The position numbers and the translations under genes were made by a program. 50,724 bases of DNA from a virus. The stretch lies in the IMG/VR virus record IMGVR_UViG_3300036792_000548, positions 1 to 50,724 of that record. One strand, 5' to 3'. The notes beneath the pieces were generated by a model, which was not told the origin of the DNA, searched no databases, and saw nothing but the letters and a program-made list of their open reading frames with translations. Position 1 is the first letter of the stretch. The number at the start of each line of letters is the position of its first letter. Below are positions 1 through 49,845 of this stretch, in pieces.

Positions 1-327
1 CTCGGTTCGCCAGCCGAGGCCGTAGAGCTCGGCGAGCTTCTCCGCGCCCGGCTTGTAGAGCGTGAGCTTCTTCGTGCCGGGGATGATCCCGTAGTCGAGC
101 CCGTCGCGAACGACCTTCACGTGCTCCGTGCCGTCGTTCCACGTCTCGACCCCAGTCTGCGGGCCGTCCATGCACTCCTTCACGAAGGCTTGGAGTCGCT
201 GGAAGCGCTCGATCGCCTCCTTCGGCGAGATGCGCATCACGAGTCCGTCGTAGGCCGGGCTCGGCGAAGACAGGGTCGCGACGGCCGTCGTGCCGTTCGC
301 GTCGGTGAGGGGATCTTGCGCAGTCAT
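1..327 (-). CDS. Conserved phage protein of unknown function, 3' end cut by window edge
   Basis: The ATG at 327 overlaps the upstream stop by ATGA and the frame stays open to base 1, so about 109 N-terminal residues are visible. After a variable first 35 residues comes a segment around residues 70-105 with the pattern DYGIIPGTKKLTLYKPGAEK followed by LAELYGL. I recall this pattern from small phage proteins that often sit in recombination or early modules, but I cannot name a function. It is the sixth gene of the leftward early operon. An integrase or recombination genes could follow to the left, outside the window. Confidence 0.75.
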   Translation of the reverse strand, partial: MTAQDPLTDANGTTAVATLSSPSPAYDGLVMRISPKEAIERFQRLQAFVKECMDGPQTGVETWNDGTEHVKVVRDGLDYGIIPGTKKLTLYKPGAEKLAELYGLGWRTE

Positions 328-683
328 GGTTCGGTTCCGGTCCTTTCGTTCTCGTTCGCGGCGCTCGCCGCCTTCTCGTCCTCGTTCACGATCGCCTCGA
401 GGCGCCGCAGGACGCAGCGCCACGACTCGCGCGTCTCGCCCGCCCACACGCAGCGGTCGAAGACGTTGCTCGCGAGCGTGTGCAGGACCTCGATCGCGTA
501 CGTGCGTGCCGGGACGGCGCCGAGCTGCTCGACGAGGAGCGCGGCCTGCGTCGCCGGCACGTACGTGTCCGATGGCTGCTGCCGGAAGCGCGCCGCCGCG
601 AGCGACGCCATGCACGCCGCGCGGACGGGCCGATCGGCTAGGCGCTGCTCGAGGAGATCGCGCGGATAGGCTCGGTTGGTCAT
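324..683 (-). CDS. Hypothetical protein, leftward early operon
   Basis: The chosen start is the ATG at 683 (MTNRAYPRD), preceded by GGGAGAC as a ribosome site. A longer frame upstream lies inside the neighbouring gene and is rejected. The product has 119 residues, is mostly helical in composition, and contains a stretch of Ala/Leu/Arg-rich helices with two Cys residues. It overlaps its neighbours by four bases at the 3' end and by four at the 5' end, which implies translational coupling. No family is recognised. Confidence 0.72.
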   Translation of the reverse strand: MTNRAYPRDLLEQRLADRPVRAACMASLAAARFRQQPSDTYVPATQAALLVEQLGAVPARTYAIEVLHTLASNVFDRCVWAGETRESWRCVLRRLEAIVNEDEKAASAANENERTGTEP

Positions 684-1141
684 CGACCGTCTCCCTTCGC
701 GGCGGAGTCGGCGGCGGAAGCCGGTTGAAGGTTGGCGCGAGCATGGTTGCCGCGGCATCCGTCATCCGCCGCCGACTTCGGCGCGTCTTTGAGGAGCTCG
801 TCGACGCGGCGGTTCGCCCGTCGCTCTTCACGACGCCACCGCAGATACGCGCGCGCGTGGCGCGAAAGGATCGCCCGCTGTTCGCCTATCCACCTAACGC
901 AGTCCGCGCGACGCGCCGGCAGCGTCGTCTCGGCGAACCACGTCTCGTAATACGCGACGTAGCCGCGCGCGTTGCGGGCCGCATCGAGGTCGCCCTGCGC
1001 GAGCCGCGCGTACGTGCCCGGGCCTTGCTCGACGCGGAGACGGCCGGAGGCGATGAACCCTCGGATCGCTTCCGCGCGCTCGAAAGGGATCGCGATCGGC
1101 GCGGGAGCCGATCCGATCGTGCCGTAGTGGCGGCGGGTCAC
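680..1141 (-). CDS. Hypothetical protein, leftward early operon
   Basis: The start is taken as GTG at 1141 because it gives a GTGA overlap with the upstream stop (1138-1140). A start seven codons earlier is possible. The 153-residue product begins VTRRHYGTIG. It has a central Arg/Ala-rich helical region (roughly residues 60-125) and a small polar C-terminus. It is strongly basic, which would suit nucleic-acid contact, but no known domain is recognised. High third-position GC supports coding. Confidence 0.68.
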   Translation of the reverse strand: MTRRHYGTIGSAPAPIAIPFERAEAIRGFIASGRLRVEQGPGTYARLAQGDLDAARNARGYVAYYETWFAETTLPARRADCVRWIGEQRAILSRHARAYLRWRREERRANRRVDELLKDAPKSAADDGCRGNHARANLQPASAADSAAKGDGR

Positions 1142-1371
1142 GCGGCCTCCGAGTCGCGACACGTCGGACAGCGCGCGATGTCACAATCCTTGATCTCGGT
1201 GACACGCTCGCTGTCGGGCAGCACGAGCTCTCGCGCGGCGTCGACGGCGTCCTCCCACGTGAGACACGCCGACGTGCACTCGACCTCGTGACGCATAGGA
1301 TCGTCCGTGACGATCGCCGCGACGAAGCCGGTGCCGGTCGCGTGGACTTCGATGACGACGGGGAGCTTCAC
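1138..1371 (-). CDS. Hypothetical small acidic protein
   Basis: This 77-residue protein starts MKLPVVIEVHATGTGFVAAI. It contains Cys residues at about 33 and 37 and a C-terminal CDIARCPTC cluster that could bind a metal ion. The N-terminal half looks like a short beta-sheet antitoxin-like or dimerisation fold, but that is only an impression. It overlaps upstream and downstream genes by four bases. Confidence 0.7.
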   Translation of the reverse strand: MKLPVVIEVHATGTGFVAAIVTDDPMRHEVECTSACLTWEDAVDAARELVLPDSERVTEIKDCDIARCPTCRDSEAA

Positions 1372-1646
1372 GGGTCACCTCCGGCGGCGATCACTTCACG
1401 CCCGACGCATCGCCCGACGCATTCGGCTTCGAGCTGCTCGATTCGAGCCTCAAGCATGCCGTTCGCGGTGCGGAGATCGATCACGGCCTGCGCGAGCGCT
1501 TCGAGCTCGGGGCACGTGAGGCCGCCCATGCGCGCGACGCCCTTGCAGGACGCGCCGAGGAGCTTTCGCTCGGCGGCGGAACTGTCAATCGCCGCGCGGA
1601 GGATCTCACGCACGCGCTCGTCGCTGAGCTTCGGGGCGGCGCTCAT
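1368..1646 (-). CDS. Hypothetical protein with C-terminal coiled coil
   Basis: The protein has 92 residues. The N-terminal half (KLSDERVREILRAAIDSS) is helical. Residues 48-75 (LEALAQAVIDLRTANGMLEA and onward) show a heptad pattern typical of a short coiled coil. Function is unknown. It sits in the leftward early operon with a four-base overlap to the next gene and ATGA coupling at its own start. Confidence 0.7.
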   Translation of the reverse strand: MSAAPKLSDERVREILRAAIDSSAAERKLLGASCKGVARMGGLTCPELEALAQAVIDLRTANGMLEARIEQLEAECVGRCVGREVIAAGGDP

Positions 1647-1936
1647 TGGGCCTCCGTGGTGATCGCCGCGAGGCGGATCTCACGCGCGCGGTCTTCGAGT
1701 TCGTCCAAAACGAGCTGACGGGTCAACGCGCTCGACGGCGCGACGCCCGCGATCTGCTCGACGATCTCCCAGCTCGCTTCCGTGAGCCGGCGCGCGACCA
1801 TCGCTTGCGCGAGCGCGTCGTAGGGGCCCTGGCCCTTGCAGTACTTCTTGATGGCCCCGAGGAGGGCGCGGACCTTCGCGTTGCGCGCGCGGGCGGCGCA
1901 CCACTCGCGGAGGTTGATGACGACCGCGCCGCTCAC
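1643..1936 (-). CDS. Hypothetical helical protein
   Basis: The start is GTG at 1936, giving a GTGA overlap with the preceding stop (1933-1935). The longer frame reaching 2080 would lie inside the upstream gene and is rejected. The 97-residue product begins VSGAVVINLREWCAARARNA and is almost all helical, with Ala-rich amphipathic segments. No domain is recognised. It is the second gene of the leftward operon. Confidence 0.68.
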   Translation of the reverse strand: MSGAVVINLREWCAARARNAKVRALLGAIKKYCKGQGPYDALAQAMVARRLTEASWEIVEQIAGVAPSSALTRQLVLDELEDRAREIRLAAITTEAQ

Positions 1937-2274
1937 GACACTGCCTCGATCGCCGCGCCGACGAGCGAGACGATCGTCTCGCTCGTCGGCGCGTTGCTCC
2001 ACGCGTTGAACTCCGGGTACACGGCGACGCAGCCGGACTCGGGCTCGTAGAGCCCCGTCGGGCGCCCGGCGACAGCACACCGCTGCGCTGCGTGAAGACG
2101 CGCGATGCTTGCGATGACGCCGCCCGACCCTTGCACCGGGCCCTCGACGATCGCGCCGCTCGTCGTGCGAATGCGGAACCGCGTCGCCGTCTTGCTCGTC
2201 GGGCGCTGCGCGTGCTCGCCCTTCGCCTTGTTCAGGCCCACCGCCCCAACCGCCGACCGGATTGCCTTGCCCAT
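1933..2274 (-). CDS. First gene of leftward early operon, unknown function
   Basis: The frame extends upstream to a TTG at 2328, but that TTG is the -35 box of the leftward promoter and cannot be translated. The first usable start is ATG at 2274 (MGKAIRSAVG), about 25 bases below the -10 box, with GAAAGG as the likely ribosome site. The product has 113 residues: a basic N-terminus, an SH3-like central segment (TRFRIRTTSGAIVEGPVQG) and an acidic C-terminus. As the promoter-proximal gene it should be made first after derepression. Function is unknown. Confidence 0.7.
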   Translation of the reverse strand: MGKAIRSAVGAVGLNKAKGEHAQRPTSKTATRFRIRTTSGAIVEGPVQGSGGVIASIARLHAAQRCAVAGRPTGLYEPESGCVAVYPEFNAWSNAPTSETIVSLVGAAIEAVS

Positions 2275-2299
2275 TTGCCGCGCCAACCTTTCGAAGGGG

Positions 2300-2339
2300 A
2301 GTATGATTCCCAAAGGAAACGTTGTCAACGGGAAACGCT
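2300..2339 (-). promoter_or_regulatory. Leftward early promoter with operator (pL-like)
   Basis: On the minus strand this reads half-site AGCGTTTCC, then -35 TTGACA (2323-2328), a 17-base spacer and -10 CATACT (2300-2305). The spacer holds the inverted repeat GTTTCC-TTTG-GGAATC (2305-2320). The same 40-bp arrangement recurs at 3305-3344 with 33 identical bases. Repressor binding here would cover the promoter. Confidence 0.85.
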
Positions 2340-2378
2340 AATTTAGTGTGAGGCTATCCCACACGGCACGGGGCCGCC

Positions 2379-2394
2379 TTTTCCTGCGGGAAAC
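2379..2394. promoter_or_regulatory. Operator-like palindrome downstream of repressor gene
   Basis: The sequence TTTTCC-TGCG-GGAAAC has the same 6-4-6 geometry as the operators inside the two early promoters. It lies in the short gap between the repressor stop (2410) and the leftward promoter. It could be an extra repressor site for looping or cooperative binding. A weak role as part of a terminator for the repressor transcript is also possible. Confidence 0.5.
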
Positions 2395-2409
2395 GGTGCG
2401 GCTAGGTGG

Positions 2410-3303
2410 TCAGCCTGCGGCTTTACGGTGCTTCGTACGGCTGCTTTTGGGCGCCGTCGCAGGAGGCTCGGGGGTTTCCCCTCGCGCCTCACGCGCGCGC
2501 GTGAGCTTTTCGGCGGCTTCGGTCATCGCCTGCTCGCGCTCGGCGGCGAGCTTTTTGCGCTCGCGCTCTGCGGCTTCGACCGCGCGCGCGTCGAGGTCTT
2601 CCGCATGCGCGCGACGATGCCGGGCACCGAGGAACGCGTCCCGCCAAAACATGTAGCCCTCTGCCTCGCGGTTCGCATTGAGCTCGAGCGCGTCGAGGAC
2701 GTCTTCGTCCGACGTGTTGTTGAGATTGCGCACATCCGCGTTGGCTTCGGCGCGATGCTCGATGGTGTCCTCGTCGGGGCGCGAGGCCGGCACAAGATTG
2801 CGCCCCACCGACCGCCACCACTCGCGCGCGGACGCGCCTAGCTCGGTCGCGTCGCGCATCTTCAGGCCCAGCGCAAAGGCCTCGGCGAGCGTCTCGCCCA
2901 TAGGCGCGCCACCCCAGACGCGGCGCACCTGCCCGATGGCGAGCCCGCTGCGCCGCGCGATCTCCGTGATGCGCAAGCCCTCTCGGCGCCATGCGCGAAA
3001 GCGGGCGCGCGCGTAGTGGCCGAGTACGACCGGTGAGAGCGGCGCCTCTTCGAACGCGCCTCGCTGTAGCTCGTCGAGCGTGATGCCGAGCTTCTCGGCC
3101 GCGAGCGCGATGGTCTCAAACTCCGGCTTTTTGGTCTCACCGGACTCGATCTTGGAAAGGCCGCCGGGCTCTTTCTCCATGAGGCGGGCGAGTTCGCGCA
3201 GGCCGACGCCGCGCGCTTCCCGAGCCTGCCGGAGCCTTTCGCCGATCCTCACACCGAAACGTTGCCAGGCGGAAACGCTTTCCTCAATCCCTGCCGTTAG
3301 CAT
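2410..3303 (-). CDS. XRE-family lysogeny repressor (cI-like), no peptidase domain
   Basis: The protein has 297 residues. Residues ~18-80 form an XRE/Cro-C1 type helix-turn-helix: ERLRQAREARGVGLRELARL, then GGLSKIESGETKKPEFETIA. A second HTH-like stretch follows at ~110-145 (GLRITEIARRSGLAIGQVRR). The C-terminal third is charged coiled coil ending in a basic tail. There is no LexA/S24 Ser-Lys peptidase domain, so RecA-triggered self-cleavage is not expected. ATG at 3303 is preceded by AGGA, which overlaps the right operator half-site, so the repressor could control its own translation or transcription. Its position between two matching operator-promoters makes the repressor role likely. Confidence 0.85.
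   Translation of the reverse strand: MLTAGIEESVSAWQRFGVRIGERLRQAREARGVGLRELARLMEKEPGGLSKIESGETKKPEFETIALAAEKLGITLDELQRGAFEEAPLSPVVLGHYARARFRAWRREGLRITEIARRSGLAIGQVRRVWGGAPMGETLAEAFALGLKMRDATELGASAREWWRSVGRNLVPASRPDEDTIEHRAEANADVRNLNNTSDEDVLDALELNANREAEGYMFWRDAFLGARHRRAHAEDLDARAVEAAERERKKLAAEREQAMTEAAEKLTRAREARGETPEPPATAPKSSRTKHRKAAG
3271..3283. promoter_or_regulatory. Operator-like inverted repeat inside repressor 5' end
   Basis: GGAAACGCTTTCC contains the same GGAAA/TTTCC half-sites as the early operators but facing outward with a short centre. It lies about 20 bases inside the repressor coding start, where a bound protein could give negative autoregulation. It may also be a chance match within coding sequence. 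Confidence 0.4.
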
Positions 3304-3304
3304 C

Positions 3305-3344
3305 AGCGTTTCCTATTGACGACGTTTCCCAAGGGAATCATATT
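3305..3344 (+). promoter_or_regulatory. Rightward early promoter with operator (pR-like)
   Basis: The element contains half-site AGCGTTTCC (3305-3313), -35 TTGACG (3316-3321), a 17-base spacer and -10 CATATT (3339-3344). The spacer holds GTTTCC-CAAG-GGAATC (3324-3339). Relative to the leftward copy, half-site, boxes and inverted repeat keep identical spacing. The -10 box ends seven bases before the ATG of the next gene, so the transcript should begin at or next to the start codon. Confidence 0.87.
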
Positions 3345-3351
3345 GCGCCCG

Positions 3352-3678
3352 ATGAGCCTTTCGCGCGCGTCGGTGGGTCCGCAGTTCAACGAAGGTTCCC
3401 GGCTGCTCTGGGTGCGGCTGCGCGAGATGAAGCTCAGTTTCTTCGCGGGTGCGAAGCGCGCGGACATCGACCGCACGCAGTTCTATCGATTCGCGTACGG
3501 CGATCGCGTTCCGAGCATGGCGGACGGCGCGAAGATGCGCGACGCGTTCAACATCGCGATCGACGCGTGGTCGCAGAAGCCGACCGCATCCTTCGCGCTC
3601 GTCGACGCGCAGCGCGAGCACGCCGAGGCGATGACGCAGGAGACGACGGCCCCCACCGGCACGCACGACGAGGGCTGA
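3352..3678 (+). CDS. Cro-like HTH regulator, probably leaderless
   Basis: The frame opens at TTG 3316, but that is the -35 box. The ATG at 3352 (MSLSRASVGPQF) lies seven bases past the -10 box, so the mRNA is probably leaderless. An internal ATG at 3427 is a weaker alternative. The 108-residue product has one HTH-like domain at about residues 20-75: LLWVRLREMKLSFFAGAKRA, then FYRFAYGDRVPSMADGAKMR, which matches Cro/C1 helices 2-5 in spacing. The C-terminus is acidic and disordered. By position it is the Cro counterpart to the repressor. Confidence 0.72.
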   Translation: MSLSRASVGPQFNEGSRLLWVRLREMKLSFFAGAKRADIDRTQFYRFAYGDRVPSMADGAKMRDAFNIAIDAWSQKPTASFALVDAQREHAEAMTQETTAPTGTHDEG

Positions 3679-3681
3679 CCG

Positions 3682-3897
3682 ATGGCCTCCCCTCCGCATT
3701 TCGACGCCGCCGACGCTCGCCCGCTGAACGGCAAGATCGCCGTGTCCGTGAAGAACCCGGTCACCGAGTTCGGCGTGACGTGGACGATCTCCAATCGCGT
3801 CGCGCGCGAACTCGCCGCGTCGATCCTCGCATCCGTTGAGGCCAACGAATCCCAAACCGCTGCGGAGAAGTTGTCCGCGGAACCCCGCGGAGGCTGA
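3682..3897 (+). CDS. Small hypothetical early protein
   Basis: The product has 71 residues with a start at ATG 3682, three bases after the Cro-like gene and downstream of GAGGG. The core (IAVSVKNPVTEFGVTWTISN) looks like a beta hairpin followed by a helix (RVARELAASILASVEANE). No family is recognised. It is the second gene of the rightward operon. Confidence 0.68.
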   Translation: MASPPHFDAADARPLNGKIAVSVKNPVTEFGVTWTISNRVARELAASILASVEANESQTAAEKLSAEPRGG

Positions 3898-3900
3898 GCC

Positions 3901-4113
3901 GTGCATAGCGGCAAGCATGCAGCGGCGTTGCGAAACGCGCCGCTGGGCGGAAAAGCAGCACCCAAAACGAGGTGGTTGCATGTTGCACATAAACACGCGG
4001 CGAGTGTCATCCGCACAACGCTGCGCTGTAACCTGAACGACGCTGGGATTCACCACGCGTTCGCACATGAACAAGCGGCGCGGCTGAGCGTCGCGATCGG
4101 AGCGGCGCGATGA
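3901..4113 (+). CDS. Small hypothetical basic protein
   Basis: The start is GTG at 3901 with GGAGG seven bases upstream, and the stop overlaps the next start as ATGA. The 70-residue product is Ala/His/Arg-rich (MHSGKHAAALRNAPLGGKAA) with no recognisable domain. Third-position GC is lower than in neighbours, so the coding call rests on the ribosome site and the four-base overlap. It could be a recently acquired or fast-evolving gene. Confidence 0.5.
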   Translation: MHSGKHAAALRNAPLGGKAAPKTRWLHVAHKHAASVIRTTLRCNLNDAGIHHAFAHEQAARLSVAIGAAR

Positions 4114-4481
4114 GCGCCAACACCCTCACGATCAGCGGCATCGAGGTCGGTCCGACCGCGGGAATGTACCGCTGGCGATCGAAGCATCGCGGCGGGCATC
4201 GCTCCGACAAGCGCCTCACTCCGGTCCAGGCGCGCGCTCTTCTCGCCATCGCGGACTGCATTCGCGAGCGCGGAATTGCACCGACCGGCGTGGAGCTATG
4301 CGATCGACTCGACATCTGCCAGGGCGCCGTCGGTAGCAAAAAGTCTTTCGGGCACCGGTTGTTCTTGGCCCTCGAGAAGAAGGGTTTCGTCGCGCGCGAT
4401 CGACAACACCCAAAGGGCGGGGCTCGCACGGTCCGCGTGATTCGCGATCACGTTGTCGTGCGCCTTGGGGGAATGCCTTGA
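4110..4481 (+). CDS. LexA-like winged-helix DNA-binding protein
   Basis: The protein has 123 residues. Residues ~36-105 match the LexA N-terminal winged helix: LTPVQARALLAIADCIRERG, then IAPTGVELCDRLDI, a helix ending RLFLALEKKGFVARD, and a beta-wing. The serine peptidase half of LexA is absent, so it is a stand-alone DNA-binding module, probably a transcription regulator of the early region. GGAG precedes the ATG at 4110. The stop overlaps the next start (TTGA). Confidence 0.7.
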   Translation: MSANTLTISGIEVGPTAGMYRWRSKHRGGHRSDKRLTPVQARALLAIADCIRERGIAPTGVELCDRLDICQGAVGSKKSFGHRLFLALEKKGFVARDRQHPKGGARTVRVIRDHVVVRLGGMP

Positions 4482-4974: not shown

Positions 4975-5180
4975 GCGCGGCGCGCGCGACGGTGCTCCTC
5001 CGCGGTCGACGCGTGTACGCGGATTCGATCAAGACGAAGGAGCTCTCGCCCGGCGGCGCGGCGATCGTCTACTGCGACGCGGTCGAGCCCTTCTCCGACG
5101 ATTGGGATCGCAACGAGAGGCCGCGCGAGGTGCACCTCACGTTCAACGGCCCGGGCGCCGACCGGGGGCCGCGGCAATGA
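4971..5180 (+). CDS. Small hypothetical beta-rich protein
   Basis: The start is GTG at 4971 (GTGA overlap). The 69-residue product, ATVLLRGRRVYADSIKTKEL then GGAAIVYCDAV, looks like a small beta-barrel. It lies directly upstream of the adenine methyltransferase and overlaps it by four bases, so the two are probably co-expressed. No family is recognised. Confidence 0.66.
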   Translation: MSAARATVLLRGRRVYADSIKTKELSPGGAAIVYCDAVEPFSDDWDRNERPREVHLTFNGPGADRGPRQ

Positions 5181-5788
5181 GCGACCTCGTCGGCCGCGTC
5201 GCGGCGCAACCGAAGACCGTCTACCGCGGGCGACGCGTCAAAAAGCTCCCGCCCGCCGAGCTGCTCGAGCTCACCGACGATCGCTGGACGCCGCGCGCGC
5301 TCTTCGAAGGCCTGCGCGTGCCCTTCACGATCGACGTCGCCGCGTCCGAGAAGAACACGAAGTGCGAGCGCTTCTTCGACCGCGCCGCGGACGGGCTCAT
5401 CCAGTCGTGGGCCGGCGAGATCGTGTGGTGCAACCCGCCGTACTCGAACATCGGCGCGTGGCTCGAGAAGGGTCACGTCGAGATGGCTCGCGGCTGCCGT
5501 CGCGTCACGTACCTCTTGCCCGCGAACCGCACGGAGCAGACGTGGTGGCACGACTTCGTCGAGCCGTGGCGTGACGACGAGCTCGGCATCGAGACGGTCT
5601 ACATCAAGGGCCGAGTCCGCTTCGAGTGCGCGACGGGCGTCGTCAAGAGCGAATCGGGCGCGCGCGGCGGCAAGAAGAACAAGGGCGGGGCGCAGCCTCC
5701 CTTCGCGAGCGTCTTCATCCACTTCACGCAGCCGTGGCGCGTGCCGCTCGTCGTCATGCAGGGCGAGCTCTTCGGGGGCGGCTCGTGA
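5177..5788 (+). CDS. Phage DNA N6-adenine methyltransferase (Dam family)
   Basis: The start is ATG 5177, overlapping the previous stop. The 203-residue product matches the phage Dam-type family (Pfam PF05869 style): DRWTPRALFEGL near residue 35, FTIDVAASEKN at 50-60, DGLIQSWAG, then the catalytic CNPPYSNIGAWLEKG with NPPY at 86-89. The family transfers a methyl group from S-adenosylmethionine to adenine N6. In a phage it would protect DNA from host restriction or mark timing of replication and packaging. Length and motif order are normal. Target site cannot be deduced. Confidence 0.9.
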   Translation: MSDLVGRVAAQPKTVYRGRRVKKLPPAELLELTDDRWTPRALFEGLRVPFTIDVAASEKNTKCERFFDRAADGLIQSWAGEIVWCNPPYSNIGAWLEKGHVEMARGCRRVTYLLPANRTEQTWWHDFVEPWRDDELGIETVYIKGRVRFECATGVVKSESGARGGKKNKGGAQPPFASVFIHFTQPWRVPLVVMQGELFGGGS

Positions 5789-7816: not shown

Positions 7817-8193
7817 CGCTCCGCGAAGATCGCTCCCTGGGCCCGGAGATGACCGCCGAGGGTTGGCATGTCATCGGCGGCGACTGGATTATCTGGCTGC
7901 ATCCGGCGTCGCGCCGAGTCGTAAGCCTCGAAGGCGGTTTCTTGTGGAAGAACTGCGTCAACATCCCAGCTTGGCGCGGTTCGCCATCGCCCGACGACGA
8001 GGTCCTCATCGTCGGGTGTTCGTACCGCGACGAGGGGGGATATCCCACGAGCGGCGAATCGGTCGCCGTGCTCGAGTACGGGCTTGCGGTGAAGCTCGCG
8101 CGGCGCATCCGCGCCGACATCCTCGCCGAGCGTCCGGTGCGCGTGGCCGAGCAGCTCACGCTCGACGACGCGCTCGAAGGAGCTCGCTCGTGA
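7813..8193 (+). CDS. Hypothetical early protein
   Basis: GTG 7813 overlaps the HNH gene stop. The product has 126 residues, with a Trp-rich beta-like N-terminal half (GWHVIGGDWIIWLHPASRRV) and a helical C-terminal half rich in Ala/Arg. No family recognised. Confidence 0.68.
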   Translation: MTLREDRSLGPEMTAEGWHVIGGDWIIWLHPASRRVVSLEGGFLWKNCVNIPAWRGSPSPDDEVLIVGCSYRDEGGYPTSGESVAVLEYGLAVKLARRIRADILAERPVRVAEQLTLDDALEGARS

Positions 8194-48881: not shown

Positions 48882-49186
48882 CGGTCCTGATTCGACGCGC
48901 CGGCGAGCCGAGCCGCTTCGGCGACAGCTTCCACAACAGCGGCGGTCCCCTCACGTGGCGACCGATCATCGGGCCGACGCCGGAGCAGGACCCAAAGGGT
49001 CACTGGCAGAAGATGTTCGGCGACGACCTTGCGCTCGTCACGTGCGCGAACGGTCACGAGCTCCGCTTGAGCGGTCGCGTCCACCGCGTCGCGCCCGACG
49101 GCACGGTGACGCCCTCCGACGTGTGCACGGTTCCGGGCTGCACGTTCCACGAGTTTATTCGCCTCGAAGGATGGCCAGGACGATGA
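48878..49186 (+). CDS. Hypothetical protein with Cys/His motif
   Basis: GTG 48878 overlaps the previous stop. The 102-residue product includes ALVTCANGHELRLSGRVHRV and DVCTVPGCTFHEFIRL, which give CxxxH and CxxxxC pairs suited to zinc. It precedes the endolysin and overlaps it by ATGA. Function unknown. Confidence 0.64.
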   Translation: MTVLIRRAGEPSRFGDSFHNSGGPLTWRPIIGPTPEQDPKGHWQKMFGDDLALVTCANGHELRLSGRVHRVAPDGTVTPSDVCTVPGCTFHEFIRLEGWPGR

Positions 49187-49845
49187 CGACAACCCAAGGC
49201 ATCGATGTCTCCGGCTGGTCCGGCAACCTCGACCTCGACAAGATCGCCGCCGAGTGCGCGTTCGTCTTTATGCAGGCGACGGACGGCGTCGGCACGATCG
49301 ACAAGATGCTCATGCCGCGCTCCAACGCGCTCCGCGGCGTCGGGATGGGGAAGGTGCTCGGCTGTTACCACTTCCTCCGCGTCCGGCACGGCATGAAGCA
49401 GGACGCCGACGAGCAGTGCAAACAGTTCCTCGACGCGCGCGCGAACGCCGGATGCCCGCTCCCCGCCATGCTCGACATCGAGCTCGGCGAGCCAGGATCG
49501 AGCAACCGCGCGGCGACGCATGACGAGGTCCGCGCGGCGCTCGAGCTCTTCATCGAGACGAACGACAAGTGCCTCGGCGGCGAGCTCTTCGGCTACACGT
49601 CACCCGGCGAGGGCAAGGTGATGGGCTCGTATCTCGTCGACGCGTTCACCGCGTTGCGCCCCGCGATCGCCGAGTACGTGCTCGCGCCCGGCCACGCCCC
49701 CGCGACGCCGCCGCTCGCACCCAAGCTGCCCGCGCCGTACACCGATTGGTCGCTTTGGCAGTGGGCCGGCAACGTCATGCGCTTCGGCGGCGTCGTCGAT
49801 CTGCTCGCGTTCAACGGCACGATCGACGACCTCATCGCCATGTAA
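49183..49845 (+). CDS. Endolysin, GH25 muramidase
   Basis: ATG 49183 overlaps the upstream stop (ATGA). ATG 49171 is an alternative. The 220-residue product has GH25 signatures: GIDVSGWSGNLDLDKI (D8), FVFMQATDGVGTIDK, GCYHFLRVRHGMKQDADEQC, and catalytic MLDIELGEPG (D98, E100), then WSLWQWAGNVMRFGGVVDLL near the end. It hydrolyses beta-1,4 bonds between MurNAc and GlcNAc. No wall-binding repeat is added. It depends on a holin for release, likely one of the upstream membrane proteins. Confidence 0.93.
   Translation: MTTTQGIDVSGWSGNLDLDKIAAECAFVFMQATDGVGTIDKMLMPRSNALRGVGMGKVLGCYHFLRVRHGMKQDADEQCKQFLDARANAGCPLPAMLDIELGEPGSSNRAATHDEVRAALELFIETNDKCLGGELFGYTSPGEGKVMGSYLVDAFTALRPAIAEYVLAPGHAPATPPLAPKLPAPYTDWSLWQWAGNVMRFGGVVDLLAFNGTIDDLIAM

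Follow-up and report, generated by a model that had tools for sequence, protein, structure and literature searches.

A repressor gene between two predicted outward-facing promoters

The window analysed here, an entire IMG/VR record of 50,724 bases, is linear with a GC content of 67.5% and encodes a terminase, a portal, an S78 protease, a contractile tail sheath, a baseplate and a tape-measure protein, and we therefore regard its source as a myovirus-like phage. It is an unclassified bacterial virus, and close sequenced relatives are absent from the collections searched; its terminase-based relatives reach 41% at best, have only the terminase, the portal, the methylase and one further protein in common with the window, and carry no related repressor. 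The genes and predicted promoters of the region under study are the following:

1933 to 2274, minus strand: 113-aa gene that opens the leftward operon, without a family match
2300 to 2328, minus strand: predicted leftward promoter pL, TTGACA-17-CATACT, 10/12 to the sigma-70 consensus
2410 to 3303, minus strand: repressor gene, with an XRE helix-turn-helix (HTH) domain at residues 21 to 82 (HTH_19, E = 2e-10); alternative start GTG 3255
3316 to 3344, plus strand: predicted rightward promoter pR, TTGACG-17-CATATT, 9/12 to the sigma-70 consensus
3352 to 3678, plus strand: 108-aa gene that opens the rightward operon, its start codon coinciding with the predicted start of transcription

The 297-residue reading frame that an earlier note on this DNA had assigned to a repressor is present at 2410-3303 on the minus strand and begins either at ATG 3303 or at GTG 3255. 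The former is preceded by an SD-like AGGAAA; the latter lies directly at the HTH and follows 16 codons that are low in GC3 (9/16 vs. 0.81, P = 0.02). A second HTH is possible at residues 106 to 128, and the closest solved structures are HTH proteins of the XRE, DdrO, ClgR and SinR types. The C-terminus is predicted to form a long helix (residues 199-273), with confidence confined to approximately residues 231-270. The C-terminal S24 peptidase domain that marks self-cleaving repressors of the LexA/CI type was found neither in this protein nor anywhere else in the window. Scans of viral and genome collections, which reach close relatives only, returned no relatives of the repressor, and the tblastn matches in named phages were rejected as covering only the HTH of unrelated repressors.

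Each flank contains the -35 box, 17-base spacer and -10 box that had been described for it, and the repressor gene sits between two outward early promoters, assigned by consensus only. In a strict sigma-70 scan of positions 1900-4200 (2.3 kb), pL and pR were the only matches, with 0.2 expected, and the whole 50.7-kb window gave three, namely these two and one more at 7863. No convincing promoter was found for the repressor gene itself, the best being GCGAAA-16-TATGAT (8/12, minus strand, 3364-3337). Between the repressor stop codon and pL lies a short inverted repeat, GTGTG...CACAC (2346-2364), possibly a weak terminator.

ATG 3352 of the 108-aa gene lies only 7-8 bases beyond the pR -10 box, and the rightward mRNA is therefore predicted to be leaderless. 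The product gave a weak match to RstR that fell below the cut-off (E = 0.006) and had neither a Pfam match nor PDB support; its predicted fold (pLDDT 53) was too poor for use, and the structure matches obtained with it are meaningless. We treat the gene as a candidate Cro on this weak evidence.

On the other side, positions 1-2274 (minus strand) hold a leftward operon of small ORFs, almost all of them without a family match, which continues off the left contig end. Searches of the window for a tyrosine or serine integrase, a resolvase, a protelomerase and a ParA found none of them; the contig is possibly incomplete at its left end, and an integrase could lie left of the contig start. Among the plus-strand genes, 4110-4481 is an early gene for a LexA-type winged-helix DNA-binding domain (PF01726, E = 4e-7) without a protease domain, possibly a second early regulator; 5102-5788, close to the switch region, encodes a Dam-type N6-adenine methyltransferase (PF05869, E = 3e-22); and 48955-49845 encodes a GH25 lysozyme-type muramidase (PF01183, E = 1e-12) that is probably the endolysin.

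Twin elements and predicted operators

When the minus strand of 2300-2339 was compared with the plus strand of 3305-3344, 33 of the 40 positions were identical, exactly as the earlier note had reported. The two 40-bp elements point outward, one on each side of the repressor gene and ~1.0 kb apart. In 1000 dinucleotide shuffles of both flanks (2275-2409 and 3256-3351), the best 40-mer match never exceeded 25 (mean 20.5, SD 1.2), which excludes chance for the pair. When the first 6 kb were scanned blind, this pair again came out on top with 33, followed by an unrelated pair with 27. Identity at this level is limited to the functional 40 bp and ends at the promoter/operator boundaries; most mismatches affect bases of the spacer and the loop, and the half-sites, the -35 box and the -10 box are retained. 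The predicted operators are:

2305 to 2320: OL1, 16 bp, GATTCCCAAAGGAAAC, occupying the pL spacer, 1 mismatch to GTTTCC-N4-GGAAAC
2321 to 2336: OL2, adjoining OL1 and overlapping the pL -35 box, 2 mismatches
2379 to 2394: OL3, just beyond the repressor stop codon, its centre 58 bp from that of OL2, 1 mismatch
3261 to 3276: OR3, at the repressor gene's 5' end, its centre 47 bp from that of OR2, 1 mismatch
3308 to 3323: OR2, adjoining OR1 and overlapping the pR -35 box, one good half-site, 3 mismatches, exact direct-repeat register
3324 to 3339: OR1, 16 bp, GTTTCCCAAGGGAATC, occupying the pR spacer, 1 mismatch

At up to two mismatches, the 16-bp pattern GTTTCC-N4-GGAAAC occurs five times in 50.7 kb, all within 2305-3339 and nowhere else in the whole window; 0.92 copies were expected, and none of 100 shuffles reached five. 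Half-site spacers from 0 to 15 were scanned, and a concentration in the switch region was seen with N4 only. Three operators lie in register on each side, five fitting the consensus and one weaker (OR2, a poor palindrome), and on either side the half-sites recur as direct repeats with a period of exactly 16 bp. The same operator sequence overlaps both promoters, in multiple copies on each side: predicted O1 takes up the promoter spacer, with O2 adjoining it over the -35 box, 16 bp away centre to centre.

These positions refine the original description of the sites. The 6-4-6 inverted repeat is real but does not lie strictly inside the spacer, since it spans 3324-3339 and 2305-2320 and ends on the base with which the -10 box begins. 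The extra upstream half-site is present as well; in register its distance is 16 bp (3308 vs. 3324), and the 19 bases given for it are obtained by counting from where AGCGTTTCC begins. The further site proposed at 2379-2394 was borne out, and an operator does exist where one had been drawn at 3271-3283, but it is better placed at 3261-3276, where it has the same 6-4-6 geometry. Beside OR3 there is an additional half-site at 3255-3260, and positions 3255-3283, at the start of the repressor gene, hold a third, degenerate half-site pair on the minus strand (AGCGTTTCC...ACGTTTCG) with no -10 box. The earlier note had passed over the abutment of O1 and O2, the count of three operators on either side, the absence of a self-cleavage domain from the repressor, and the coincidence of the rightward start codon with the predicted start of transcription.

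Comparison with known immunity regions

The earlier note had implied that such near-identical elements are special, and this did not hold up. In the same 40-bp test, the OL and OR promoter elements agreed at 29/40 positions in lambda (pL/pR), 24/40 in P22 and 23/40 in N15, and a blind pair in HK022, whose record leaves the operators unannotated, agreed at 26/40; set against these values, 33 is high yet the same in kind. We also conducted a blind survey of 151 sequences of at least 5 kb (150 other loci and the first 8 kb of the window), looking for inverted 40-mers that lie 0.5-2.5 kb apart and agree at 31/40 positions or more. Besides the window, it returned three viral loci, in each of which the pair (33-34/40, 992-1037 bp apart) surrounds a phage repressor and a small HTH (YdaS/Cro-like) gene begins just outside:

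L124, 3703 to 4734: inverted operator-like pair
L136, 4722 to 5756: inverted operator-like pair
L148, 3178 to 4254: inverted operator-like pair

All three differ from the window in having operator sequences of their own; the L136 repressor has an S24 domain, and L148 carries two extra small ORFs between its elements, one of them RelE/ParE toxin-like by eye. Because L124 and L136 are mutually related, the three loci amount to two independent cases. Their pairs flank repressors likewise, so the arrangement is recurrent and the near-identity of the copies is not unique. The operator pattern itself did not occur in the viral contig collection; the genome contig collection gave two chance-level matches, which had no second operator or related repressor and were discarded.

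The proposed switch is not novel in kind and has an ordinary lambda-type layout. Like lambda, the region has two predicted sets of three operators, with O1 within the pL and pR spacers, and early promoters that face away from the repressor on both sides. Unlike lambda CI, the repressor here has no S24 self-cleavage domain, and its predicted long C-terminal helix is a further difference; lambda operators are 17 bp long and 20-24 bp apart centre to centre, whereas the distances here are 16 bp for O1-O2 and 47-58 bp for O3; and in lambda, rexAB lies between OL and cI and OL-OR spans 2.3 kb, compared with 1.0 kb here. The c2/cro immC region of P22 likewise has the repressor alone between OL and OR and three operators on each side, with cro to the right of OR, the place occupied here by the rightward gene, but P22 has the further immunity genes mnt, arc and ant and its elements agree at only 24/40.

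The nearest layout, on our best reading, is that of the immB region of N15, phiKO2 and PY54, in which the repressor gene is also alone between OL and OR and 16-bp operators overlap outward promoters, with a separation of less than ~1 kb. The phiKO2/N15 repressor (CB) lacks the Ser/Lys required for self-cleavage (PMC4997575), which may be compared with the lack of an S24 domain here, and the cI and cro mRNAs of PY54 are leaderless (PMC4488713), as predicted for the rightward mRNA of the window. N15 differs in having five operators (three OR and two OL) of another motif, in the control of repA by OL, and in its prophage, a linear plasmid with a protelomerase, an enzyme not found in this window. 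The distinguishing details of the switch, as predicted, are a repressor without a self-cleavage domain and abutting operators.

The proposed switch and its alternatives

The lambda-type reading offered at the outset agrees with the operator anatomy, with the promoter placement and with the position of the XRE repressor between outward promoters, and we consider it quite likely that the whole region is a lambda-type OL/OR immunity switch. From the sites, their spacing, their overlap with the promoters, the gene order and the HTH domain, all of which can be read in the DNA, we infer binding, repression, looping, autoregulation and the identity of Cro. A dimer of the XRE repressor would bind the 16-bp palindromic GTTTCC-N4-GGAAAC operators, three of which flank its gene on each side, and on O1 and O2 it would occlude pL and pR from -35 to -10. 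Since O1 occupies the space between the -35 and -10 boxes and O2 covers the -35 box, bound repressor would block RNA polymerase at both promoters, and the two early operons would be silenced together. The two O3 sites probably serve to set the repressor level, to bridge the two sides through a ~1 kb DNA loop, or both. The rightward operon would open with a probable Cro-type regulator expressed from a leaderless mRNA.

More tentatively, the region may be a compact switch with a non-cleavable XRE repressor, a reading that we find somewhat doubtful. The 16-bp operators abut, and dimers on O1 and O2 would lie on opposite faces of the DNA; cooperativity and looping would therefore need the helical C-terminal domain instead of CI-style contacts, and induction would not proceed by RecA-driven self-cleavage.

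The elements might instead be bound chiefly by the rightward, Cro-type product, or by both proteins, with the XRE protein recognising some other target. The Cro and prophage repressor proteins of phiKO2 and PY54 do bind differing operators (PMC4997575, PMC4488713), and the rightward gene stands directly downstream of OR; however, that gene is only weakly HTH-like, whereas the XRE gene encodes a clear HTH protein and lies between the sites, and we think this arrangement unlikely. Far less probable still is a recent duplication or inverted repeat that has no function in regulation, for instance the end of a mobile element. It would account for elements that are highly identical and inverted, but not for an identity that stops at the promoter/operator boundaries, for differences that mostly spare the half-sites and both promoter boxes, or for the further copies of the operator outside the duplicated stretch. 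We give just as little credence to a stoperator-like system, in which repressor sites would act elsewhere too, as in L5-type mycobacteriophages. The possible second HTH recalls the two-domain mycobacteriophage repressors described in PMC9283540, yet the sites are palindromic, not asymmetric, and at up to two mismatches are confined to 2305-3339, and the many asymmetric repressor sites spread genome-wide in L5-type phages were not found in the window.

As a lambda-type immunity switch, the region would imply a temperate lifestyle for this phage. For a high-GC phage with a contractile tail, it provides an immunity region whose predicted operators and promoters can be read cleanly from the sequence. 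Because the small blind survey gave repressor loci only, inverted, near-identical operator/promoter pairs ~1 kb apart suggest themselves as a practical means of finding repressors without protein homology.
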